Assembly: GCA_002729515.1 (NCBI GenBank)
Contig: PBYF01000143.1
Coordinates: forward strand, 1-64,000
DNA from: Deltaproteobacteria bacterium
GTDB taxonomy: Bacteria > Myxococcota_A > UBA9160 > SMWR01
DNA length: 64,000 bases
Reading direction: 5' to 3'
Below are positions 22,122 to 34,508 of the stretch, one piece after another; position 1 is the first letter of the stretch; every line of letters starts with the position of its first letter. Under the pieces are notes generated by a model. It saw nothing but the letters and a program-made list of their open reading frames with translations. It did no database searches and had not been told where the DNA came from. The translations under genes and the position numbers were made by a program.

Positions 22122-23276
22122 ATGCTGGGGCTGTTCTCTGCCTTCGAATGGGCGCTCCTGGGGCCGGTGCTCATCGGGTGCATCTATTCCCTGCTGTGCC
22201 TGGGCGCGGTGTTCTGGTACCTGCGCCGTGCGGTTCACCCGCCTGCGACTGGAGCGTGGCCTCCGGTCACGATTCTGAAGCCGATCCACGGACTCGAGAA
22301 GAACCTCGAGGAGAACCTCCGCAGCGCCTGTGAACTCGACTACCCCACCTACCAGGTGGTGCTCGCGGTGCAGCGACTCGAGGATCCGGCGCTGCCCCTC
22401 CTGCGCGAACTCGAGCGCGAGTACGGCTCTGCGCGGATCAGCGTGGTCGCCGTAGAGAACCAACCCGTCGTCAACGGCAAGGTTCAGAATCTCATCCATG
22501 CCCTTGCCGCGGCACGGCATGACATCGTGGTGATCAGCGACAGCGATATCGGGTTGAGGCCCGACTACTTGCGGCAGATCGTGGCGCCCCTCGCCGATCC
22601 GGAAGTGGGCTGCGTCTGCACGCTCTACCGCGCCGTCGACTCCGACGTGTGGCACGAGAAACTCGAACACCTTTCCTACAACTCGGAGTTCATCGTCAAC
22701 GTGATCTTCGCCGAGGTATTCAGCGCGTACCCCTTCTGTCCGGGTTGCTCCGTGGCCATCCGGCGCAAGGCGCTCGATGAGATCGGTGGCTTCGAGCCGT
22801 TGCTCGACTTCCTCGTCGAGGATTTCGAACTCGGCCGCCGCATCAACGAGCGCGGCTACCGGACGGAGTTGATTCCCTACTTTGTCGACACGACGGTGGA
22901 TATTGAGAGGGCGGACGACTGGTGGAGTCACCAGGTCTACTGGGACCAGAACACCCGCGCGGTGGCACCGGTGGGGTTCTTCTTCACCGTGCTGATCCAG
23001 CCGCTGCCCTTCGCACTCATCTTCGCTCTGACGCGGGGCTTCGATCCCTGGGGGTTGGGTGTTCTCGCCGGCACCCTGGCCGTACGCTGGTTCACGCGGG
23101 CCGCCATCTTCTGGCGCATCGGCGACCGCGCGGGGCTGCGCCTGTTGCACTGGCTGCCGGTTCGCGATCTGGCCGGCTTTGGATCCTGGTTCGTGGCGCT
23201 CTTCAAGCGCACATTCGAGTGGCGACATTTCCACTTCGAATTGACGCGAGACGGTCGCATCCTTCCACGCCGCTAG
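22122..23276 (+). CDS. hpnI: hopanoid glycosyltransferase HpnI
   Basis: GT2/GT21-like membrane glycosyltransferase. In Burkholderia cenocepacia HpnI adds an N-acetylglucosamine unit to bacteriohopanetetrol. One N-terminal transmembrane helix (about 8-32), then the catalytic domain: KPIHGLEKNLEENL, the metal-site DSDIGL, PFCPGCSVAIRRKALD, and the catalytic-base region LVEDFELGRRI. The usual QxxRW element appears altered (HQVYWDQ). Two or three C-terminal membrane segments follow (about 283-330). 384 residues. The assignment is supported by hpnK 12 bases downstream. The ribosome site GGAGG sits unusually close to the ATG. Confidence 0.88.
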   Translation: MLGLFSAFEWALLGPVLIGCIYSLLCLGAVFWYLRRAVHPPATGAWPPVTILKPIHGLEKNLEENLRSACELDYPTYQVVLAVQRLEDPALPLLRELEREYGSARISVVAVENQPVVNGKVQNLIHALAAARHDIVVISDSDIGLRPDYLRQIVAPLADPEVGCVCTLYRAVDSDVWHEKLEHLSYNSEFIVNVIFAEVFSAYPFCPGCSVAIRRKALDEIGGFEPLLDFLVEDFELGRRINERGYRTELIPYFVDTTVDIERADDWWSHQVYWDQNTRAVAPVGFFFTVLIQPLPFALIFALTRGFDPWGLGVLAGTLAVRWFTRAAIFWRIGDRAGLRLLHWLPVRDLAGFGSWFVALFKRTFEWRHFHFELTRDGRILPRR

Positions 23277-23288
23277 AGACTTCGACAC

Positions 23289-24161
23289 GTGAATCCCAAG
23301 CGGCTCATCCTGACGGCTGACGACTTCGGAATGGCGGTTGCGGTGAACGAGGCCGTCGAGTGCGGGCACCGGGAAGGAGTGCTCACGACCGCAAGCCTCA
23401 TGGTCGGCGCTCCTGCCGCGGCGGACGCCGTGGAACGCGCGCGTCGGCTTGCGCGGCTGCGGGTGGGGTTGCACGTGGTGCTCGTGGAAGGCCGCCCGGT
23501 GCTGCCGGCGGATCGGGTCCCGGACCTGGTGGACGGCGACGGCGCGTTCCGCACCGACCTGGTTCGCTCCGGCTTTGCCTTCTTCTTCCGACCCGGGGTA
23601 CGGGCGCAACTCGCGGCAGAGATTCGGGCGCAATTCGAGGCCTTTCGGGCGACAGGCCTGCCCCTCGATCACGCGAACGCGCACAATCACATGCACCTCC
23701 ACCCCACCGTCTCGAGGTTGATCCTGCAAGTCGGGCGTGAGTTTGGGCTGGCGGCGGTGCGCCTCCCCTTCGAACCCCCGGGGGCGTCGGCTCGAGCTGC
23801 CGGTTGCAGCGCTTGGAGCCGGCGACTCACCGCGACCGCGTTGGCACCGTGGACGGGACTGCTACGTTCCCGGCTCCGCCGAGCACGGGTCGCGCACAAC
23901 GATTTCGTCTTCGGGCTAAATGACAGTGGCCGCATGGAGGAGTCGCTGGTGCTGCGCCAGCTAGCTTGCCTTCCACGGGGTGTGACTGAGATGTATTTCC
24001 ACATAGCCACACGCCGCTGCCAGACCCTCGAACGGCACATGCCGGACTACCGGCATCAGGAAGAGCTCGCTGCACTGCTCAGCGACCGCGTGCGCAAGTC
24101 GCTGCGGAACAAGGGCATCGAACCGATCGCCTTCGGTGACCTTCCCGGGCTGACCGGCTAG
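23289..24161 (+). CDS. hpnK: hopanoid deacetylase HpnK (YdjC family)
   Basis: Carbohydrate deacetylase-like protein. HpnK removes the acetyl group from the GlcNAc-bearing bacteriohopanetetrol made by HpnI. The N-terminal LTADDFGMAVAVNEAVE contains the paired metal-binding Asp residues; LRVGLHVVLVEGRPVLP and the His-rich AHNHMHLHP complete the site. It matches the HpnK subgroup rather than chitooligosaccharide deacetylases, especially in LMVGAPAAADAVERARRL. 290 residues, GTG start. Confidence 0.9.
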   Translation: MNPKRLILTADDFGMAVAVNEAVECGHREGVLTTASLMVGAPAAADAVERARRLARLRVGLHVVLVEGRPVLPADRVPDLVDGDGAFRTDLVRSGFAFFFRPGVRAQLAAEIRAQFEAFRATGLPLDHANAHNHMHLHPTVSRLILQVGREFGLAAVRLPFEPPGASARAAGCSAWSRRLTATALAPWTGLLRSRLRRARVAHNDFVFGLNDSGRMEESLVLRQLACLPRGVTEMYFHIATRRCQTLERHMPDYRHQEELAALLSDRVRKSLRNKGIEPIAFGDLPGLTG

Positions 24162-24204: not shown

Positions 24205-25338
24205 ATGCCCGAACCCGAGAACATCCAGACGGTCCCGGCCGCCCGTATCGAGTTTCAGGCGGACGACAGGCAATGGATTGCCGACCGCATCCAGGAGGTG
24301 CTCGCCAGCGGACAGTTGACGCTCGGCCAGCACGGTAAGGCCTTCGAGGCGGGCTTCGCCGATCTCTGCGGCGTGAAGCACGCGATCGCCGTCAACAGCG
24401 GTACCGCTGCACTCGAGATCGCGCTGCGCGGAGTCGGCGTCGAGGGCAAGGACGTGCTCGTGCCGGCGAATACATTCTTCGCCACAGCGGCTGCAGTCGT
24501 CCACGCGGGTGGACGCCCGGTGCTGACGGACACCGACCCCGAGACTTTCGGAACCGCCCCTGAGGAGATCGAGTCTCGCCTTAGCGCCGATACGGCGGCG
24601 ATCGTGGTGGTGCATATCGGCGGCCTGGTGTCGCCGCGCATGCAGGAGATCCGGGCTCTCGCCGACGCGCGGGGGATCGCGCTGGTCGAGGACGCAGCAC
24701 ACGCACACGGCTCCGCTCACGAGGGCGTGCGCGCCGGCGCCTTCGGCACGGCGGCAGCCTTCAGCTTCTACCCCACGAAGGTCATGACCGCGGGGGAAGG
24801 CGGGATGATCACCACGAACGACGACGTTCTGGCGGAAGAGGCCCGGATCTACCGCGACCAGGGCAAGGCCAGCTTCACTGTCAACGCGCACACGCGGCTC
24901 GGCTACAACTGGCGAATGTCCGAGCCCCACGCGATCATCGGGCGCCGTCACCTCGAACGCCTGCCCGACATGATCGCAGACCGCCAGCACATTGCCGGAC
25001 TCTACGACGCGGCCCTCAAGGACTTCGCGGGACTCACACCCCTGCGTATTCCTCCGGGTGGAGAGTGCAACTACTACAAGTACATCGCCTTGCTCGCCCA
25101 TCCAACGGACCGCAAGGCCCTGAAGGCGGAATTGCGCGAGAAGCATGGCGTCTCGTTGGCGGGCGAGGTATACGAAGACCCGATTCAACGGCAGCCTATC
25201 TTCGAGCGTTACGGGGACACTGGACTTCCGGTCTCGGAACAGGTCTGCGCAAATCACATCTGTCTGCCGGTCTTCTCGGGTATGACCGAGGCCCAGGCAC
25301 ACCAGGTGATCGACGCACTCGAGCAGATAATCGGCTAG
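24205..25338 (+). CDS. DegT/DnrJ/EryC1/StrS aminotransferase
   Basis: PLP-dependent sugar or cyclitol aminotransferase, 377 residues. Seen: NSGTAALEIALR, PANTFFATAAAV, the PLP-contacting VEDAAHAHG, and the internal-aldimine lysine in FSFYPTKVMTAGEGG. The C-terminal substrate region has GYNWRMSE. Family members aminate keto groups on nucleotide-linked sugars or, in the StrS branch, inososes of aminocyclitols; which applies here cannot be told. Clear ribosome site before the ATG. It lies between hpnK and hpnJ with two epimerase genes, all in one direction with gaps of 9-43 bases, so a role in tailoring the hopanoid head group is inferred. Confidence 0.9.
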   Translation: MPEPENIQTVPAARIEFQADDRQWIADRIQEVLASGQLTLGQHGKAFEAGFADLCGVKHAIAVNSGTAALEIALRGVGVEGKDVLVPANTFFATAAAVVHAGGRPVLTDTDPETFGTAPEEIESRLSADTAAIVVVHIGGLVSPRMQEIRALADARGIALVEDAAHAHGSAHEGVRAGAFGTAAAFSFYPTKVMTAGEGGMITTNDDVLAEEARIYRDQGKASFTVNAHTRLGYNWRMSEPHAIIGRRHLERLPDMIADRQHIAGLYDAALKDFAGLTPLRIPPGGECNYYKYIALLAHPTDRKALKAELREKHGVSLAGEVYEDPIQRQPIFERYGDTGLPVSEQVCANHICLPVFSGMTEAQAHQVIDALEQIIG

Positions 25339-25353
25339 CGGAAGGGGAAAGCA

Positions 25354-26301
25354 GTGAAGCACATGAATGTGGTGGTCACGGGCGGAAGCGGCTTCATCGG
25401 GTCACACGTGGTGGATGCGCTCGCCGATGCGGGTCACCGCATCACGGTCCTCGATCATCGGGTGAAGCCCCACCGGAGCGACGTGGAATTTGAGGACGTG
25501 GATCTGCTCGACCTGTCGTCCGTCATCGCTGCAACCGCCGAGTCGGAGCACATCTTTCACCTCGCTGCGGTCTCCAATGTGAACTATGCCTTCAAGTACC
25601 CGGCCTACAGCACGGCACTCAACGTCATGGGAACGACGAACGTGTTGGAGGCGGCACGCATCAACGGCGCGAAGCGCGTCTACCTGGCCTCGACGGTCTG
25701 GGTCTACAACGGCGCACCCGATGATGGCGTGGCCGACGAGACCGTGCCCTTCTATCTGAATGGGGCGGGGCATATCTACACATCGACGAAGATGGCCTGC
25801 GAGATGCTCTGCCACAACTACGGCGAACTCTACGGGCTCCCCGTCACGGTGCTGCGCTACGGGATCCCTTACGGTCCGCGAATGCGCGAGGAGTTGCTAA
25901 TCCCGATCTTCCTCAAGAAAGCGCTGAACGGTGAGCCGCTCACGATCAGCGGCGACGGAAGTCAGTACCGCAAATTCGTTTATGTGGAGGACATCGCTCG
26001 GGCCCACCTGCTCGCCATGCAGGAGCACGCGGCCGGCGAAACCTACAATCTCGAGGGAGCCGAAAAAGTAACGGTCCTCGAGGTGGCGGAGCGAATCCGC
26101 GAACTGCTCGGTGAGGGAGTCAAGATCGAGCGGGTCCCCGCCCGTGCCGGTGATTTTGGGGGCAAGGACGTCTCGGCAGACAAGGCGCTGCGCGACCTCG
26201 GCTGGCACGCCGATGTGGACTTCGCTTCCGGACTCAAGACCACTACCGAGTGGTTCTGCCAGCGCTGGGGTAACCCCCGCCAGGGAGCGACGGACTCCTG
26301 A
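25354..26301 (+). CDS. NAD-dependent sugar epimerase/dehydratase (extended SDR)
   Basis: 315 residues. Rossmann loop VTGGSGFIGSHVVD at the N-terminus, HLAAVSNVNYAF, the SDR catalytic pair in YTSTK, and GDGSQYRKFVYVEDIA in the C-terminal substrate domain. Extended SDRs of this type epimerise, dehydrate or decarboxylate nucleotide sugars. The GTG start is preferred to the ATG three codons later because GGAAGGGG lies at the right distance. Part of the hpn cluster; the precise reaction is unknown. Confidence 0.87.
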   Translation: MKHMNVVVTGGSGFIGSHVVDALADAGHRITVLDHRVKPHRSDVEFEDVDLLDLSSVIAATAESEHIFHLAAVSNVNYAFKYPAYSTALNVMGTTNVLEAARINGAKRVYLASTVWVYNGAPDDGVADETVPFYLNGAGHIYTSTKMACEMLCHNYGELYGLPVTVLRYGIPYGPRMREELLIPIFLKKALNGEPLTISGDGSQYRKFVYVEDIARAHLLAMQEHAAGETYNLEGAEKVTVLEVAERIRELLGEGVKIERVPARAGDFGGKDVSADKALRDLGWHADVDFASGLKTTTEWFCQRWGNPRQGATDS

Positions 26302-26320
26302 CGCTACCCGCAGTGAGTCC

Positions 26321-27262
26321 ATGAGCCGGCCGCGAGTCCTCGTGACGGGGGGAGCGGGCTTCATCGGCTCGTTCACAGCGGAACGCTTCGAGCGCGAGGG
26401 CTGGGAAGTCCGGATTCTCGACGACCTTTCCTCCGGAGATCGCCGCAACTGCGCCGAGGGCTGGGAACTCCGGGTTGCCGATATCGGCGACCGGGGTGCT
26501 GTGGCAGACGCGGTGTCGGATTGTGAGACGGTCGTGCACTTGGCGGCCTTCACATCCGTGCCCGAGAGCCTCGAGCGTCACGAGGAGTGCTACAGGATCA
26601 ACGTGGGCGGCACGTTCCAGGTCTTGGAGGCGTGCGCGAGTGCGGGGACACGCAGGCTCGTCTTCGCCTCCTCTTCGGCGGTCTACGCGGAACTGCCCGA
26701 CGCCCCGAAGCGGGAGACGGATTGTCCCGAGCCGATCAGCCCGTACGCCGTGTCGAAGCTCGAGGGTGAGCACCTGTGCGCGGCCTTTCGTGAGGCGCGG
26801 GGGCTCTCTTCGGTGGCTCTGCGTTTCTTCAATGTCTTCGGCCCACGGCAACCTGCCGATTCGGACTACGCCGCCGCTGTACCGATTTTCGCCGAGCGCG
26901 GCCTGCGGGGCGAACGCCTCACCGTTTACGGTGATGGCAAGCAGACCCGGGACTTCGTCTATGCCGAGGACGTGGCCGAGGCCATCTTTTCCGCGGCAGT
27001 GAGCGACGCGGAGGGGACCCTCAACGTGGGTACGGGCCGGCCAATCGACGTCTTGGCCCTGGCGGACAGCATCGTTCAATTGACCGGAGGCGTGGCACAG
27101 CATCGGTTCGAGCCGCCCCGTCCCGGCGACGTGCGATCTTCAACGGCCGATGTGGCCCAGATCGCCGAGGTTCTCGGCTGGAAGGCGCGCACTTCTCTCG
27201 AAGCGGGATTGTCGCCAACGCTCGCCTGGTGGCGGGAGCGGCTGGCCACCACCAAGCGCTAG
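26321..27262 (+). CDS. NAD-dependent sugar epimerase, GalE-like (extended SDR)
   Basis: 313 residues. VTGGAGFIGSFTAERF, HLAAFTSVPESL, the catalytic SSSAVY and SPYAVSKLEGE (Tyr/Lys), RFFNVFGPRQ, and YGDGKQTRDFVYAEDVA are typical of UDP-glucose/GlcNAc 4-epimerase-like enzymes. Distinct from the preceding epimerase, so the pair probably performs two steps or acts on two substrates. It ends 9 bases before hpnJ. UDP-GlcNAc or UDP-Glc is a reasonable but unproven substrate. Confidence 0.87.
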   Translation: MSRPRVLVTGGAGFIGSFTAERFEREGWEVRILDDLSSGDRRNCAEGWELRVADIGDRGAVADAVSDCETVVHLAAFTSVPESLERHEECYRINVGGTFQVLEACASAGTRRLVFASSSAVYAELPDAPKRETDCPEPISPYAVSKLEGEHLCAAFREARGLSSVALRFFNVFGPRQPADSDYAAAVPIFAERGLRGERLTVYGDGKQTRDFVYAEDVAEAIFSAAVSDAEGTLNVGTGRPIDVLALADSIVQLTGGVAQHRFEPPRPGDVRSSTADVAQIAEVLGWKARTSLEAGLSPTLAWWRERLATTKR

Positions 27263-27271
27263 GATTCTCAC

Positions 27272-28732
27272 ATGCGCAAGGTCCTGTTCCTGAACCCGCC
27301 CTCCTTCAAGGGCTTCGACGGAGGTGCCGGCGCCCGGTACCAAGCTCGGCGCGAGGTGCGATCGTTCTGGTTCCCCACCTGGCTCGCCCACCCTGCCGCG
27401 ATGGTGCCTGGAAGCAGGCTGGTGGATGCGCCACCCGCGGACTTGGGCCTCGACGACATCCTACCGCTGGCGACGGAATTCGAAGTTGCCGTCCTTCACA
27501 CCAGCACTCCCTCTTTCTTCTCCGATGCTCGCACTGCGGAAGCACTCAAGGAGGTCAACCCGAAGCTCGAGATCGGCCTCGTGGGCTCCCACACCGATGT
27601 CTTGCCGGGCGAGTCGCTGGAGAAGGCGAAATCGGTGGACTGGGTGACCCGCGGCGAGTTCGACCATACGGTCGTCGAGCTTGCCGAGGGCCGGCCGTTC
27701 GAGGAGATCGACGGGCTCTCCTGGCGTCACCATGGCGAAGTGGTGCACAACAAGCCGCGGCCCGTGCCCGAGGACCTGGACGCACTGCCCCATGTCGTGG
27801 ACGTATATGCGCGCGATCTCGTGCTCGAAAACTATCAGGTGGGTGAGGCGCTTTTTCCGTACGTCTCGTTCTACACGGGCCGGGGATGTCGCTCCCGCTG
27901 CAGCTTCTGCCTCTGGCCCCAGACCATCGAGGGGCACCGCTTTCGTACCCGAAGCCCAGCTCACGTGGCGGCCGAAGTGCAGAAGGCCCTCGACTACTGG
28001 CCCCAGCTCCGGGAGATCTTTTTTGATGATGACACGCTCACCGACGACATCGCGCACGTGGAAGGCATTGCGCGACGCATCGGCCCGACCCTCGCCGAAC
28101 GAAGGGTGACCTGGAGCTGCAACGCCAAGGGCAACGTGCCCTACGAGACACTCAAGATCTTGAAGGAGAACGGGCTCCGCGTCGTCACGGTTGGTTTCGA
28201 ATCCGGGAACCAGCAGATCCTCAACAACATCCGGAAGGGGATGAAGGTCGCGCGCTACCGACAATTCGCCGAGGATTGCCATGCGCTGGGCATCAAGATG
28301 CACGGTTGCTTCATTGTGGGCCTGCCCGGGGAGACCAAGGAGACAATCGAGGAGACGCTTCAGTTTGCCAAGGATATCGACCCGTACACGATCCAATGTT
28401 CCGTCTCCGCCGCCTATCCAGGCACTCATCTCTACAAGCAGGCCCGGGAGCAGGGCTGGCTCATCGAGGATACGACCGGCAAGCTGGTAATGGACGAAGG
28501 CTTCCAGGTCACCTCGATCTCCTATCCGCACCTCTCCCACGAGGAGATCTTCGAGGCCGCTGCCAGTTTCTACCGGCGCTTCTTCTTTCGCCCGGGCCCC
28601 ATTGCGAGGATCGTGAAGGAGATGCTGACGGATTGGAGCCAGATGAAGCTGCGCCTGAGCGAAGCCCGGGAGTTCTTCAGCTACTTGGCGACGCGGAAGA
28701 ACCAGGCGTCGGGGGGGGCTGAAACTCCGTGA
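27272..28732 (+). CDS. hpnJ: hopanoid radical SAM protein HpnJ
   Basis: B12-binding-type radical SAM enzyme, 486 residues. HpnJ is needed to turn the glucosamine head group of bacteriohopanetetrol into the cyclitol ether, a ring contraction/rearrangement. The N-terminus LNPPSFKGFDGGAGARYQAR and the phrase FWFPTWLAHPA are diagnostic of HpnJ. The radical SAM cysteines are in GRGCRSRCSFC (CxxxCxxC), near residue 210, followed by FFDDDTLTDD and the SAM-binding GFESGNQQIL. It closes the plus-strand hopanoid run; its 3' end overlaps the convergent HpnL-like gene by 56 bases. Confidence 0.93.
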   Translation: MRKVLFLNPPSFKGFDGGAGARYQARREVRSFWFPTWLAHPAAMVPGSRLVDAPPADLGLDDILPLATEFEVAVLHTSTPSFFSDARTAEALKEVNPKLEIGLVGSHTDVLPGESLEKAKSVDWVTRGEFDHTVVELAEGRPFEEIDGLSWRHHGEVVHNKPRPVPEDLDALPHVVDVYARDLVLENYQVGEALFPYVSFYTGRGCRSRCSFCLWPQTIEGHRFRTRSPAHVAAEVQKALDYWPQLREIFFDDDTLTDDIAHVEGIARRIGPTLAERRVTWSCNAKGNVPYETLKILKENGLRVVTVGFESGNQQILNNIRKGMKVARYRQFAEDCHALGIKMHGCFIVGLPGETKETIEETLQFAKDIDPYTIQCSVSAAYPGTHLYKQAREQGWLIEDTTGKLVMDEGFQVTSISYPHLSHEEIFEAAASFYRRFFFRPGPIARIVKEMLTDWSQMKLRLSEAREFFSYLATRKNQASGGAETP

Positions 28733-29717
28733 CGTTTCGAATCGAGTAGGTCCCGCCGATGGCGAGGCCGCACGCGATCCAGAGCAGGTCGCGCGCCCGA
28801 CGAATGGTGGCGAGCGCGAGTCCCGCCTCGGGAGAGCCGGTGAGTGCCGCACAGATCAACACCTGAGCCGCCTCCTGGGTACCGATGTCGCCGGGGACGA
28901 AGAAGAGCGTCGAACGCACCAAGACGACGAACGCTTCGATCACGATCGCGTCGGTGAACCCGATCGGGTAGCCGAGGGCGTTCATCGCGATCCAGGTTGC
29001 CACCGCGTTTCCGGACCACTCGGCCAGGGCACAGGTCACCGCCAAGGCCGCACGCGGGCGTTGCGAGGCGTAGAAGGTGATGAGTTGGTCCTCGACCTCG
29101 TGCACCGAGTCGAGGGCTTCGACGACCCGCTCGGGAAGGCGCTTGCCGAGCGGCCTGCGTTCGAGCCAGGCACGCAGCCGCGAGAAGCCGCGCCGGATTT
29201 GCACGAGGAGAAAGCCCAGGATGGCCAGAGCGAAAATACCGAACCCGGCGCCGGCGGCGGCGCGATAGGCGGGGGGCAGGACGTCGGCGCGAACAATCAG
29301 GATGAGTCCCACCGAGATGACGATCAACTGCGCGATGAGGTCCATCATCCGAGTCAGAACGAGGGAGGCCGCTCCGTCCGTGAACGGTATTCCGTAGTGG
29401 CGCTTGAGCAGGATCGCCTTCACCGGCTCCCCACCGAGGCCTGCGAAAGGCGTGATGGCCTCCAGGGCGGAACCCACCATCAGGACGCGCCAGATCCGCC
29501 AGATCCAGCGCGGCCTGAACGGGACTCCCCGCACGGTCAGCAGCCAGGACACGGCGAACAGCAGGTAACCCACGAAATACGCCGCCAGAATACCCAGGGC
29601 CGCCCATGGCCCGACTTCGCGCAGCCGCATTCCCACTTCCGACAGATTGGTCTGCCAGAGGACTACGGCCAGCAGTACCGTCCCGAGCACCAACATGCCG
29701 AGCACGAATTTTTTCAC
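28677..29717 (-). CDS. HpnL-like/LPG-synthase-TM family membrane protein
   Basis: About 346 residues with seven or eight hydrophobic helices and the family patches ALEAITPFAGLGGEPVKAILL, RMMDLIAQL and FFVPGDIGTQEAAQVL. This is the flippase-like membrane domain shared by lysylphosphatidylglycerol synthases and by HpnL, a membrane protein often found in hopanoid clusters. The GTG at 29717 gives MKKFVLGMLVLG with AGGA nine bases upstream. A TTG at 29759 that overlaps the upstream stop (TTGA) is the alternative. Position next to hpnJ makes an HpnL-like role in hopanoid-lipid handling or transport likely but unproven. Confidence 0.8.
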   Translation of the reverse strand: MKKFVLGMLVLGTVLLAVVLWQTNLSEVGMRLREVGPWAALGILAAYFVGYLLFAVSWLLTVRGVPFRPRWIWRIWRVLMVGSALEAITPFAGLGGEPVKAILLKRHYGIPFTDGAASLVLTRMMDLIAQLIVISVGLILIVRADVLPPAYRAAAGAGFGIFALAILGFLLVQIRRGFSRLRAWLERRPLGKRLPERVVEALDSVHEVEDQLITFYASQRPRAALAVTCALAEWSGNAVATWIAMNALGYPIGFTDAIVIEAFVVLVRSTLFFVPGDIGTQEAAQVLICAALTGSPEAGLALATIRRARDLLWIACGLAIGGTYSIRNVTEFQPPPTPGSSASPSS

Positions 29718-29755
29718 GAAGAATCCTGGCGATCGCTGGACGTGTGGGGGTGCGC

Positions 29756-30241
29756 TCAAGCGGCTCGGGGGGCCTGTTCGCTGGAGCTGGTCGCAGGCCC
29801 GGAGCCTTTCGAGGACGAGCTGAAACCGCGCTCCGGCAGCGAGCGGAGTACCAAGCGGGCGGCTCTCGCCAGCGCCGGGAAGAGAGTCGGAACGATGAGT
29901 CGCCGGTCGAAACTCGGCTCGCCGTGCGCCTCTTCATGAGGGAGATCCCTGGGCGCTAGCATGTGCCGGACGAGCCGCGGGTAGCGTTCTTCCTCGTCGG
30001 CCTGGAGATCGGGCGCATCGCCGATTAGAAGGTCGTTCTCGAGGCCGGCGACGGATCGAATCGGGGGGCCGGCATTGCTCTCGAACTGGAGGGCATGCGT
30101 CCCGAAGGGCAGGCTGCGCAGAAAAGAGGGCTCCTCCTCGCTCAGTTCCGGCCAGGGGAGATCGGCGGGCTCATGGTTCTTATGACCTTCGACAAGGGTT
30201 CGACAGAAGAGCCTCCCGTGCTCTTCGGATCCATTGCGCAT
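29756..30241 (-). CDS. hypothetical protein, possibly truncated ferritin-like
   Basis: 161 residues, not recognised with confidence. The ATG has a strong ribosome site (GGGAGGT) at proper spacing, which argues for a real gene. The segment with FCRTLVEGHKNHEPADLPWP, FESNAG and LQADEEERY resembles the first half of helical ferritin-like proteins, where an EExRH pattern binds metal; here the His is Tyr. The expected second half is missing, and the C-terminus is a Ser/Gly-rich tail. It may be a decayed or diverged copy. It is co-directional with the HpnL-like gene. Confidence 0.55.
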   Translation of the reverse strand: MRNGSEEHGRLFCRTLVEGHKNHEPADLPWPELSEEEPSFLRSLPFGTHALQFESNAGPPIRSVAGLENDLLIGDAPDLQADEEERYPRLVRHMLAPRDLPHEEAHGEPSFDRRLIVPTLFPALARAARLVLRSLPERGFSSSSKGSGPATSSSEQAPRAA

Positions 30242-30384: not shown

Positions 30385-31482
30385 ATGACGAATCTGGGCG
30401 ATGGCGGGACCGGGACAACCTGCCCCGTCAACTCGCACAACGAGTGGGACCCGCTCGAGGAGGTGATCGTCGGCCGCCTGGAGGGAGCGGTGATTCCGCC
30501 AAACCACCCCGCAGTGACATTCAACGTCCCCCGAAAAGTCGCGCGCTTCTATCGTTTCGTAGGGGGGCACCGCTATCCCCGGCTGCTCACATCGCCGGCC
30601 CAACGCGAACTCGACGAGTTCATTCGCGTGCTCGAGGGCGAGGGGATCACCGTGCGCCGACCGGAATGGCTCGACTTCTCGAAGCGCGTGCGCACGCCGC
30701 ACTGGAGTTCCACCGGTTTTGCCATCGCGTGTCCGCGCGACGGCTTCCTGGTGGTAGGCGACGAAATCATCGAAGCGCCGATGTGCTGGCGCGCGCGCTA
30801 CTTCGAGCCACTCGCCTACCGGAAGCTCTTCCGGAGGTACTTCGAGGAGGGCGCGCGGTGGACGGCCGCACCCCGGCCCATGCTTTCAGACTCGCTCTAC
30901 GATGCGGACTACCGCCCGCCGGACACCGGAGATCCCATCGGGTACGTGATTACCGAGGAAGAGGTCGTATTCGACGCCGCCGACTTCGTCCGCTGCGGCC
31001 GAGACCTTTTCGTCACCCGGAGCAACGTCACCAACGTGCTGGGTATCGAGTGGTTGCGGCGCCACCTGGGCGATGACTACCGAATTCACGAAGTCGAGAG
31101 CCGGTGCCGGCAGCCCATGCACATCGACTCGAGCTTCATGCCCCTGGCCCCCGGAAAGCTCCTGGTGAATCCCGAGTACATCGACGTCAATCGTCTGCCG
31201 CCCGTACTGAAGAACTGGGATGTGCTCATTGCGCCGCAACCCGACAAGGTGCGGAGCGCCGTGGCATCCATGTGCTCGGACTGGATCAGCCTGAACGTGT
31301 TGATGCTCGACGAAAAGCGTGTGATCTGCGAGAAGGCCCATCCGTCGATGCAGCGCGCCCTCAGTGACTGGGGCTTCGAGACGATTCCCGTCTCGTTCCT
31401 GCACTACGCGCCGTTCGGTGGTTCGTTTCACTGCGCGACACTCGATGTGCGCCGCCGCGGTGTGCTCGAGTCGTACTTCTGA
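30385..31482 (+). CDS. arginine-dependent amidinotransferase (AGAT/StrB1 family)
   Basis: 365 residues, alignable over its whole length with glycine amidinotransferase and the amidinotransferases of streptomycin (StrB1) and cyanotoxin pathways. These move the amidino group of arginine to an acceptor amine, leaving ornithine and a guanidino product. The catalytic triad is intact: Asp in FDAADF (197-200), His in MHID (His246), nucleophilic Cys in FHC (Cys350). CPVNSHNEWDPLEEVIVG and VRRRG are also conserved. The acceptor is unknown; glycine, an amino sugar or an aminocyclitol are possible. No clear ribosome site before the ATG. It stands next to the hopanoid genes and ends 6 bases from the convergent ABC permease. 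Confidence 0.9.
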   Translation: MTNLGDGGTGTTCPVNSHNEWDPLEEVIVGRLEGAVIPPNHPAVTFNVPRKVARFYRFVGGHRYPRLLTSPAQRELDEFIRVLEGEGITVRRPEWLDFSKRVRTPHWSSTGFAIACPRDGFLVVGDEIIEAPMCWRARYFEPLAYRKLFRRYFEEGARWTAAPRPMLSDSLYDADYRPPDTGDPIGYVITEEEVVFDAADFVRCGRDLFVTRSNVTNVLGIEWLRRHLGDDYRIHEVESRCRQPMHIDSSFMPLAPGKLLVNPEYIDVNRLPPVLKNWDVLIAPQPDKVRSAVASMCSDWISLNVLMLDEKRVICEKAHPSMQRALSDWGFETIPVSFLHYAPFGGSFHCATLDVRRRGVLESYF

Positions 31483-31488
31483 GCGCTG

Positions 31489-32682
31489 CTACTCGTAGCT
31501 GAGCGACTCCACGATGTTCATGTCGGCGGCCTTTCGAGCGGGGTAGAGGCCAAAGAAGACACCGACCAGCATCGAGACTCCGAAGGCCACGACTACGCTC
31601 ACACCGGAGACGGGAATCGGTACGTCGTTGATGAAGCCAATCCAGATCGGGAGCCCGACGCCGAGCCCGACACCGAATACACCGCCGGCCAGGCTGAGGA
31701 TCGACGCCTCCAGCAGAAATTGGAGCAGGATGTCGCGGCGTCCCGCCCCGAGTGCCAGGCGAATGCCGATATCCCGGGTGCGCTCCGTCACCGTGACGAG
31801 CATGATGTTCATGACCCCGATGCCTGCCACGAGCAGGGATACGCCGGCGATCGCCATCAAGCCCAGGGTGATCGCGTCTGAGACCTGCTTCACCAGCACG
31901 AGATAGGTATCGAGGGATTCGATCGTGTAGCCGTCGATGTTCCGGTACTGAGAGATCAGCACGTCTTTGGTGTCGGCCACCACGGTGGGGACGGTCTCCG
32001 GACTCTCTGCCTGCATGTAGACCACATCGACCGTGCGGGTATTGCCGACGTGCTTGAGGGTCCAGAAGGGCACGATTGCGACCAGGCCCGCTGCCTCGCT
32101 CTTCTCGAGAGCGGCAGCACTTTCGACGCCTTCGCGGTAGACGCCGATGACACGAAAGCGCAGATCGAACAGCCGCAGGTAGGTGTCGTGGAGTTCTCGC
32201 CCGCCGTAGAGGTCGCGATGGAGTTCCTTGGAGATGACACAGACCTTCGCGAAGTTCCGGTCCTCCAGGTCGCTGAAGAAGCGTCCCTGGAGCATGCGGA
32301 GGTTGCGCACCTGGTAGTACGAGGCAGTTGAGCCGAGCACGGCCACCACTCGGGGCTCACCGTCGATGGGTACCGTGGCGGCGTCGTCCAGCACCGGTGC
32401 CAGCGCCGAAACGCCCCGCACCCGCTCCCGGAGCAGGTCCAGGTCCTCGAAACTCAACTCCGTCGGGTTGGGACCAATGCCGGTTCCATAGGCGAAGACG
32501 AGGTTCGAGCCCACGCCCTCGATCAATGACACCACGTAGTCGCGGCCCACCAGGCCGATCGAGACCACCACCACGACGCTGGCGGTGCCGATCCCCATGG
32601 CCAGCATCGTGAGCAGTGAGCGGCCACGCTGGCCCTGAAGGCCCTCCCACGCGAGTCGGAAGAGCAGGTTATGCCACGCCAT
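31489..32682 (-). CDS. MacB-like ABC transporter permease
   Basis: About 397 residues of the FtsX/MacB permease type: one N-terminal transmembrane helix, a large periplasmic domain (about 50-270) and three C-terminal helices with the conserved GVMNIMLVTVTERTRDIGIRLALGA motif. Such permeases work with an ATPase, an HlyD-like adaptor and TolC to move small molecules or lipoproteins out of the periplasm. The ATG giving MAWHNLLF overlaps the ATPase gene by 14 bases. Last gene of the four-gene minus-strand operon. Confidence 0.92.
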   Translation of the reverse strand: MAWHNLLFRLAWEGLQGQRGRSLLTMLAMGIGTASVVVVVSIGLVGRDYVVSLIEGVGSNLVFAYGTGIGPNPTELSFEDLDLLRERVRGVSALAPVLDDAATVPIDGEPRVVAVLGSTASYYQVRNLRMLQGRFFSDLEDRNFAKVCVISKELHRDLYGGRELHDTYLRLFDLRFRVIGVYREGVESAAALEKSEAAGLVAIVPFWTLKHVGNTRTVDVVYMQAESPETVPTVVADTKDVLISQYRNIDGYTIESLDTYLVLVKQVSDAITLGLMAIAGVSLLVAGIGVMNIMLVTVTERTRDIGIRLALGAGRRDILLQFLLEASILSLAGGVFGVGLGVGLPIWIGFINDVPIPVSGVSVVVAFGVSMLVGVFFGLYPARKAADMNIVESLSYE

Positions 32683-33370
32683 CGAGGGTCTGTCCGTCGC
32701 GGAAATGGACCACGCGCTGCGCAGCCGCAGCCACCTCCCGGTCGTGGGTGATGAGCACAATCGTCGCTCCGTTCGCGTGGAGCTGCGCGAAAAGCTCGAG
32801 AATTTCGCGCATGGTCTTGCTGTCGAGTGCACCGGTGGGCTCATCCGCCAGCAGGAGCGGAGGCTCGTTGACGAGAGCACGGGCGATGGCAGCACGCTGG
32901 CGCTGACCGGACGACAATTCGTTGGGTCGGTGGCCGAGCCGGTGACCGAGATCCACCTCTTCTAGCCGCAGGCGCGCCCGCTCTTCGCACTCCGCGGGCG
33001 CGAGCGTCCGGCTGTAGAGCGCCGGGAGAGCGGCGTTCTCGAGGATCGAGAGTTGCGGCAGCAGGTGGAACTGCTGGAAGACGAAGCCGATGGATCGGTT
33101 GCGTAGCAGCGAGAGTTCTTCGCGAGATCGACCCGTCGTCAGCTCTCCGTCCAGGTGGTAGCTGCCCTCGTAATCGGCGTCGAGCAGGCCCACGATGTGG
33201 AGGAGCGTCGATTTTCCCGAGCCGGACGGACCCATCACGGCCGTGAACTCGCCGTGCTGTACCTCCATGTCTACGCCGCGCAGCGCCGGAACAGGCACGC
33301 CATCGCGCCCGTAGGACTTGCTCACCGCCGAGAGTTGGATCAGCGGCTCGCTGTCAGCGAGCGGCGACAT
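32669..33370 (-). CDS. MacB-like ABC transporter ATPase
   Basis: About 233 residues with Walker A GPSGSGKST, Q-loop FVFQQFHLLP, the signature NELSSGQRQRAAIARAL (LSGGQ variant LSSGQ), Walker B LLLADEPTGALD and the switch His in ITHD. LolD/MacB type. The start at 33370 gives MSPLADSEPLIQL and overlaps the adaptor gene; a longer GTG start 14 codons upstream lacks a ribosome site. It powers the adjoining permease. Confidence 0.92.
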   Translation of the reverse strand: MSPLADSEPLIQLSAVSKSYGRDGVPVPALRGVDMEVQHGEFTAVMGPSGSGKSTLLHIVGLLDADYEGSYHLDGELTTGRSREELSLLRNRSIGFVFQQFHLLPQLSILENAALPALYSRTLAPAECEERARLRLEEVDLGHRLGHRPNELSSGQRQRAAIARALVNEPPLLLADEPTGALDSKTMREILELFAQLHANGATIVLITHDREVAAAAQRVVHFRDGQTLDGVA

Positions 33371-34508
33371 CGGGGATCCGAATTTCGAGCCGGACACCGT
33401 CTTCGAGTCCACTCGAATAGCCGACGACGACCCTGGCCTCGGGCTCGACGCCTCCGAGAATTTCTACCGTCGAGATGCCCTGACGGCCGAGTTCGACCGG
33501 TGTGCGGCGGGCGTGGTCGCCGACGACTGTATAGACAAAGGGTGCTCCGTCACCGCGGTGCACGGCCATTGCCGGTACCTGGAGCGCGTCGGCAACATCC
33601 GCCACCAGAATGTCGACATCGACCGTCATGCCGGGAATCAGCCCCTCGCTCGGGGGCTGAACCAGGGCCAGGCTCTCCGAAACCGAACGGTTCTCCTTCA
33701 CCACGACGTAGGGCACGATTTCCGACACAATGGCGGACCACTCGCGGTCGGGCCATGCGTTCGCCGTGATTCGCATCTGCTGGCCGACGCTCACACGGCC
33801 CAGGTCGACCTGGTCGACGTTGGCGCGAATGCGCAGCCGGCTGAGATCGGCGAGCCAGAGGACCGGTGCCCCCACTTCGCTGATTTCGTCCTGTTTGTAA
33901 GACGTTCTGTAGACGGTCCCGTCGAAGGGTGCGAGAACCTTGGTGGCCGCGAGCTGGGCCCGAAGCTCCGCGATCCGCAGGTCGAGGGACGCGACACGCA
34001 GGGGAACCTCGCTCTGCAGATTCTCGAACCGCTCGCGCGCTTCGGCCTGCTGAGCGCGGCTCTCGGCGTAGCGGTGCGGGTTGAGAGCTCCCTCCGCATG
34101 CAGCTCGGCGTCCGTCGCGGCCCGCTTCGACACGCGCGTGTGGGTGCGCTGGGCAGCGCGGAGCGACTCCTCCGCCGCGAGCTTCTCGCTCTCGGCGGAG
34201 GCGAGTTCGGCGGCGACAGGCCCTGGCTCGATCTCGAGGACCACGTCCCCGGTGACCACGCGCGTGCCCGGCTCGGGGATCTCTAGAATGCGACCCGCCA
34301 CGCGCGCATGGACCCGGAGTTCCGCCTCGGGAACTGGTTCCACCGTACCGTTCGTATTGACCTCGACCCGGAGCGGGGCTCGGCGGGCGACCGCGACTTC
34401 GATGGATAGTGCGGGAGTGCGGGCGCAGAGGAGTCCTGCGAACAGGAGCAGCGCCCCCGCCCCCCCGGCCAGCAGCCAGGACCTGCGTACAGATGAGATA
34501 GCCGACAT
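33354..34508 (-). CDS. HlyD/MacA-like periplasmic adaptor
   Basis: 384 residues: an N-terminal signal anchor (about 10-28), a lipoyl-like half (ELRVHARVAGRILEIPEPGTRVVTGDVVLEIE), a coiled-coil hairpin (about 100-180), the second lipoyl half (KVLAPFDGTVY) and a beta-barrel region. Membrane fusion proteins of this type join the inner-membrane ABC transporter to the outer-membrane channel. Six bases after the TolC-like gene. Confidence 0.92.
   Translation of the reverse strand: MSAISSVRRSWLLAGGAGALLLFAGLLCARTPALSIEVAVARRAPLRVEVNTNGTVEPVPEAELRVHARVAGRILEIPEPGTRVVTGDVVLEIEPGPVAAELASAESEKLAAEESLRAAQRTHTRVSKRAATDAELHAEGALNPHRYAESRAQQAEARERFENLQSEVPLRVASLDLRIAELRAQLAATKVLAPFDGTVYRTSYKQDEISEVGAPVLWLADLSRLRIRANVDQVDLGRVSVGQQMRITANAWPDREWSAIVSEIVPYVVVKENRSVSESLALVQPPSEGLIPGMTVDVDILVADVADALQVPAMAVHRGDGAPFVYTVVGDHARRTPVELGRQGISTVEILGGVEPEARVVVGYSSGLEDGVRLEIRIPDVAAR

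Follow-up and report, generated by a model that had tools for sequence, protein, structure and literature searches.

Why would a bacterium with the genes for a cyclitol-ether hopanoid place three further sugar-modifying genes among them? The question is raised by contig PBYF01000143.1 from an assembly of a Deltaproteobacteria bacterium (GCA_002729515.1; Myxococcota_A, UBA9160), whose first 64,000 nucleotides were analyzed as one stretch (the window; coordinates count from its first letter). Bacteriohopanetetrol (BHT) cyclitol ether is made through HpnI, HpnK and HpnJ (Schmerk et al. 2015, as described in passages of PMC12583986). The window encodes the same three core enzymes, each a full-length match to its family. 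It differs from this pathway in three added sugar-modifying genes and in an HpnI that belongs to a divergent clade whose (Q/R)xxRW motif is altered.

The genes form a single run on the + strand, hpnI-hpnK-DegT-SDR1-SDR2-hpnJ, with gaps of 12, 43, 15, 19 and 9 bases. DegT is an aminotransferase, and SDR1 and SDR2 are extended short-chain dehydrogenases/reductases (SDRs); we call these three genes the trio and, together with their divergent HpnI, the module. An earlier note on this DNA had reported three co-directional sugar-modifying genes between hpnK and hpnJ, separated by 9-43 bases, and this arrangement was confirmed in window coordinates. The best reading of the locus is that the trio provides a new donor sugar for HpnI. 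We judge it evenly balanced whether the cluster encodes a variant BHT cyclitol-ether pathway with a custom donor sugar, yielding a cyclitol-ether hopanoid that has one extra nitrogen and is probably guanidinylated.

Other genomes carry the gene set beside hpn genes

We found the set in two other genomes, G038 and G586. Its presence beside hpn genes in both shows that the module is not a matter of chance or a local accident. The earlier note had proposed the conservation of gene order as a check, and the set is indeed kept beside hpn genes in these genomes. G038 belongs to the same order as the window's genome but to another family, and has the arrangement hpnK-DegT-SDR1-SDR2-hpnJ, with a MacB-like permease gene on the opposite strand between SDR1 and SDR2. 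Beyond hpnJ lie an HpnL-like gene and an amidinotransferase gene. Identities to the window are 65% for hpnK, 73% for DegT, 79% for SDR1, 67% for SDR2 and 72% for hpnJ. G586 is an alphaproteobacterium in which DegT-SDR1-HpnL-like-SDR2-like-hpnK-hpnI-hpnJ occupy a single contig (DegT 62% identical, in a gene cut by the contig end; SDR1 70%, SDR2-like 43%, hpnK 60%, hpnI 56% and hpnJ 64%).

The genomes compared are mostly draft assemblies, and absences hold for the inspected loci, whose flanks varied in length and often ended at contig ends. HpnJ is present in 6 of the 80 genomes of the window's order, and the four besides the window's genome and G038 have hpnJ, hpnK and hpnI and lack the trio. 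Across 379 genomes from the phylum, a search for DegT at E <= 1e-95 again found only the window's genome and G038. Neither DegT nor SDR2 was found at 80 GTDB HpnJ loci or at 26 HpnJ loci from 25 other alphaproteobacterial genomes (one of which, G394, is the genome of locus L067). SDR1 had only weak matches at these loci (25-32% identity), about as high as HpnA-like proteins should score. Inspected loci that showed all of hpnI, hpnJ and hpnK usually had them adjacent, with no extra sugar genes.

The module HpnI is divergent

The HpnI proteins of the window, G038 and G586 are 48-56% identical to one another, and on average about 32-34% identical to 110 other HpnIs, which average 46% among themselves. 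A tree built from 34 HpnIs groups the three in a clade with 100/100 support, whose stem is 1.52 changes per site long. We compared conserved columns, defined as positions kept in at least 85% of the 31 other HpnIs, and found 15 positions that differ in all three module HpnIs, including Arg273 to Tyr, Asp233 to Glu, Gly116 and Pro192. The Arg of the (Q/R/H)xxRW motif is present in 31/31 other HpnIs and is Tyr273 in all three module proteins (HQVYW at amino acids 270-274 of the window HpnI). Likewise, the Asp of the ADD motif, found in 31/31 others, is Glu at position 233 in all three (VED at 232-234 in the window), next to the presumed catalytic Asp. Tyr273 aligns to Arg275 of ceramide glucosyltransferase, which we take to be required for the use of UDP-glucose (a literature search gave no confirmation). 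The replacement of Arg273 suggests that the module HpnI may not use UDP-N-acetylglucosamine.

The two enzymes that follow HpnI have hardly changed. HpnK lost no conserved column in the three module genomes, and HpnJ has two mild changes.

Predicted functions of the three added genes

The window DegT scores below all NCBIfam equivalog cut-offs, those for PseC, ArnB, WecE, LegC and DesI included, its best result being PseC with 243 against 423.5 bits. It shares the PF01041 fold family with perosamine synthetase, QdtB, a scyllo-inositol transaminase chain, ArnB and WecE, to which it is 31-34% identical, and perosamine synthetase is its top-scoring PDB DegT. However, the module DegT proteins lie outside the ArnB, WecE, perosamine synthase and QdtB branches of the DegT tree. 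They fall in a separate clade (100/100) with relatives from plasmid pANACY.04 of Anabaena cylindrica and a plasmid of Streptomyces sp. SAT1. The scores and the tree position together rule out an ArnB, WecE or perosamine synthase. The earlier note had named placement among such enzymes as a check.

On both of these plasmids DegT adjoins a relative of SDR1, which is 46% identical to the window's in Anabaena and 41% in Streptomyces. Given that the two genes are adjacent also in these unrelated settings, DegT and SDR1 probably act in sequence. The Streptomyces pair (DegT 42-43% identical) belongs to the same subclade and has the same Trp-for-acid motif described below, but its surroundings are of aminoglycoside type and contain no hopanoid genes. 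They encode APH(7''), a dehydroquinate (DHQ)-synthase-like cyclase, a sedoheptulose-phosphate-isomerase-like protein, a GHMP kinase and a PhyH dioxygenase, content that presumably fits a hygromycin-B-type cluster, although our literature search turned up no paper on it. On the mobilizable Anabaena plasmid (L126, 11986-16994), DegT-SDR1 is followed by genes for a sulfotransferase, GalE and a NUDIX hydrolase.

The window SDR1 retains the catalytic Thr, Tyr and Lys. We aligned it against GalE-like chains and against UDP-glucuronate decarboxylase, in which TSEVYG corresponds to TVWVYN within the STVWVYN of SDR1, such that the acid is replaced by Trp. This Trp (T-V/C-W) is common to all six SDR1 relatives aligned. 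As the acid of the TDE/TSE motif is needed in dTDP- or UDP-sugar 4,6-dehydratases and in UDP-glucuronate decarboxylases, these activities are ruled out, and a simple dehydrogenase or epimerase is likelier. SDR1 is a probable dehydrogenase partner of DegT, and may be a keto-sugar-forming dehydrogenase. G038 carries a second SDR1 copy (L131, 9917-10921 on contig C60), 73% identical, beside a sulfotransferase-like gene with no DegT nearby.

SDR2 has the epimerase-type SSxVY (FASSSAVY) and YxxxK (YAVSK) motifs, and among PDB chains it is nearest to an NAD-dependent epimerase (6wjb/6wj9) and a UDP-glucose 4-epimerase (4zrm). Its motifs and these relatives mark it as GalE-type, a predicted 4-epimerase. 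The earlier description of both SDRs as epimerases therefore stands for SDR2, whereas SDR1, which has no dehydratase or decarboxylase acid, may instead form a keto-sugar.

An amidinotransferase near hpn genes

A gene for an AGAT-type amidinotransferase lies 1.7 kb downstream of the hpnI-to-hpnJ run. The earlier note placed the trio correctly at 24205-27262, but its span omitted this gene, which is part of the story. The protein aligns over residues 12-365 with chains of glycine amidinotransferase and SxtG, a full-length match, and has FHCAT at amino acid 348. The PDB matches are SxtG (449 bits), glycine amidinotransferase (342), HsvA (325) and inosamine-phosphate amidinotransferase (253), and there was no Pfam or NCBIfam match at 1e-5.

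In the window, in G038, at two further loci (L044 and L116) and in Methylobacterium bullatum, no more than a few kb separate AGAT from hpn genes; L116 and M. bullatum have the order hpnK-hpnJ-hpnI-hpnL / AGAT. It adjoins an HpnL-like gene in G458, G586, G078 and G005. Among 385 evenly sampled alphaproteobacterial genomes, all four with AGAT at E <= 1e-100 have HpnJ, compared with 29 of 385 overall (hypergeometric p 2.6e-5). When the centre genome, chosen for having both, is left out, the count is 3/3 (p 3.5e-4). In the window's order, three of five AGAT genomes have HpnJ.

Guanidine-substituted BHT cyclitol ethers have been on record since 1985. The genus Methylobacterium is among the reported sources (passages of PMC5358736), and the producers listed in passages of PMC5642901 are methylotrophs, Zymomonas, Geobacter and cyanobacteria. 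The accounts of guanidine-substituted BHT cyclitol ether / BHT glucosamine in these passages of the two papers name no gene for guanidinylation, and our literature search returned no paper joining "hopanoid" with "amidinotransferase". Because AGAT adjoins hpn genes in Methylobacterium, a genus with guanidine-substituted hopanoids, the AGAT-type gene is a good candidate for the enzyme that performs this substitution. The window resembles the M. bullatum locus in having AGAT beside hpnL and hpnI/J/K, but DegT and SDR1 are absent there from the 12 kb flanks inspected. Conversely, AGAT relatives without hpn genes nearby occur on Bradyrhizobium plasmids, which counts against this assignment. These relatives are 61% identical and lie on conjugative plasmids (L129 and L130). 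G005 has two AGAT genes (L145 and L146), one of them near an HpnL-like gene, and HpnJ was not detected in this genome.

A proposed custom donor sugar and the alternatives

If a new donor sugar is made, SDR2 and SDR1 would most likely epimerise and oxidise a UDP-N-acetylhexosamine to a keto-sugar, which DegT would transaminate to a UDP-diamino (or otherwise amino-modified) hexosamine. Transfer of this sugar onto BHT would fall to the altered HpnI, after which HpnK would strip the N-acetyl group and HpnJ would contract the ring to an aminocyclitol, the last two steps as in the normal pathway. Finally, the AGAT-type enzyme would probably turn one amine into a guanidine. The expected product is a cyclitol-ether hopanoid that exceeds BHT cyclitol ether by one nitrogen and probably bears a guanidine group. 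Family membership and genomic context are the grounds on which we propose the sugar, the sequence of reactions, the site of the additional amine and the final compound.

An alternative that we think unlikely is tailoring after transfer, in which the usual cyclitol ether is the starting point: once HpnI, HpnK and HpnJ have completed it, SDR1 would oxidise a hydroxyl of the ring for amination by DegT, with guanidinylation by AGAT as the last step. Oxidation and then amination of a ring hydroxyl is the logic of aminocyclitol antibiotic pathways, and the DegT-SDR1 pair also occurs in the aminoglycoside-like Streptomyces cluster with its DHQ-synthase-like cyclase and APH(7''). Moreover, a cyclitol together with an amidinotransferase recalls streptidine chemistry. 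However, tailoring does not account for a motif change in HpnI, the first enzyme, while HpnJ stayed unchanged, and the nearest relatives of SDR1 and SDR2 are nucleotide-sugar enzymes. We prefer a new donor mainly because the changed conserved sites lie in HpnI, the enzyme that binds the donor sugar.

We give little credence to a change of acceptor, e.g., a pentol/hexol or aminotriol side chain, with DegT and the SDRs modifying the side chain and not the sugar. The changes in the module HpnI could stem from a different acceptor instead of a different donor, in that the (Q/R)xxRW region might touch either, and amines and extra hydroxyls are known on hopanoid side chains (passages of PMC12583986). 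Against this, extended SDRs and DegT enzymes usually act on nucleotide sugars or cyclitols. HpnO, a class III aminotransferase, is already assigned to side-chain amination. The description of HpnO in passages of PMC12583986 is simply that of an aminotransferase family protein.

It is improbable that the trio supplies a nucleotide sugar for another glycan (O-antigen or capsule) and only shares the operon: DegT and extended SDRs are frequent in O-antigen loci and the top-scoring PDB DegT is perosamine synthetase, but the trio accompanies hpn genes in three genomes, of which one is alphaproteobacterial, HpnI co-varies with it, and DegT lies outside the ArnB, WecE and perosamine branches, so O-antigen sugar supply is ruled out as the principal explanation.

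Beyond the possible change of acceptor, several observations weigh against a custom donor sugar. The module was seen in three genomes only, hpnI of G038 sits on a different contig, and SDR2 of G586, at just 43% identity, may be non-orthologous to that of the window. Two genomes of the window's order have AGAT with no HpnJ detected. The trees of HpnK and HpnJ give no clear clade of the three genomes, which is neither supported nor rejected (approximately unbiased test, p 0.46 for both), so that hpnK and hpnJ may or may not have been transferred along with the module; G586 HpnJ is 64% identical to that of the window but averages 69.5% with HpnJs from other proteobacteria, reaching 76%. With hardly any conserved residues lost and no clade, HpnK and HpnJ are ruled out as sharers of the specificity change. 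The earlier proposal that a different donor feeds HpnI is thus partly supported, by the separate HpnI clade, the motif changes and the conserved residues kept in HpnK and HpnJ.

Features of the locus and neighbouring genes

The features are listed in Table 1. HpnI, HpnK and HpnJ all exceed the curated NCBIfam cut-offs, HpnI narrowly. Catalytic motifs are intact in DegT (SFYPTK), SDR1 (YTSTK), SDR2 (YAVSK) and HpnJ (CxxxCxxC). SDR2 probably starts at ATG 26321, although a longer open frame (26111-27262) runs into SDR1. A scan of the window for promoters and terminators found nothing exceeding shuffled sequences.

Table 1. Genes of the hopanoid head-group cluster and its downstream neighbours in the window
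Feature	Coordinates	Strand	Evidence
hpnI, module-type, GT21-like glycosyltransferase	22122..23276	+	NCBIfam TIGR03472, 326 bits (cut-off 310)
hpnK, YdjC-type N-deacetylase	23289..24161	+	TIGR03473, 400 bits (cut-off 233)
DegT/DnrJ/EryC1/StrS-family pyridoxal-phosphate aminotransferase, separate subclade	24205..25338	+	PF01041, 348 bits
SDR1, extended NAD-dependent SDR	25354 (GTG) or 25363 (ATG)..26301	+	PF01370, alignments
SDR2, GalE/UDP-N-acetylhexosamine 4-epimerase-like extended SDR	26321..27262	+	PF01370, nearest PDB chains
hpnJ, radical SAM ring-contraction enzyme, B12-binding-like N-terminal part	27272..28732	+	TIGR03471, 708 bits (cut-off 578)
HpnL-like flippase-domain membrane protein (LPG_synthase_TM)	28680..29759	-	PF03706; TIGR03476, 149 bits (under cut-off 196)
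Ferritin-like hopanoid-associated gene, shortened copy	29756..30241	-	Aligns with residues 17-128 only of a 294-aa G038 protein
AGAT-type amidinotransferase, catalytic FHC motif	30385..31482	+	PDB matches

The estimated contamination of the window's assembly is 7.66%, which leaves some chance that the contig was mis-binned. Against mis-binning, a squalene-hopene cyclase is encoded in this assembly too (on a separate contig, C119), and the cluster is surrounded by housekeeping genes. The N-termini of the cyclase's neighbours (L103) resemble HpnH and squalene-synthesis enzymes, as judged by eye only.

In other genomes, equivalents of the HpnL-like gene adjoin AGAT or hpn genes. Many genomes also encode, near hpnL and hpnIJK, a ferritin-like family that carries ExxH-type motifs (EEKRH and EEGRH) and has no Pfam match (L102, 13003-13887; L166, L170, L174, L176, L052, L066, L074 and L088). 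Members accompany AGAT in the window, G038 and G586, and the window copy covers just the N-terminal part of the G038 protein. This family is possibly a diiron enzyme acting on hopanoids. Next to AGAT, the window encodes a MacB-like permease and an HlyD-like periplasmic adaptor (31489-34508, - strand). G038, with its MacB-like permease between SDR1 and SDR2, has an HlyD-family gene near AGAT that is 53% identical to the window's. An export system may thus be part of the cluster.

Implications for hopanoid diversity

As membrane lipids and biomarkers, cyclitol-ether hopanoids are widespread, and the passages of the literature cited here assign three genes to their head group. The module points to an undescribed, amine-richer head group. 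More tentatively, a mobile module of special HpnI, DegT, SDR1 and SDR2 could give rise to a new hopanoid class, a diamino- or guanidino-aminocyclitol ether, via a nucleotide sugar unused in known lipid pathways, with AGAT as the missing guanidinylation enzyme. If a module does swap the donor sugar and brings its own matching HpnI, an undescribed hopanoid becomes predictable by mass, part of the unassigned hopanoid diversity in environmental extracts would be accounted for, and there would be a route to study the tolerance of HpnJ for other sugars. The link to AGAT would make the assignment of a guanidinylation gene, pending since the description in 1985, directly testable in a laboratory methylotroph.

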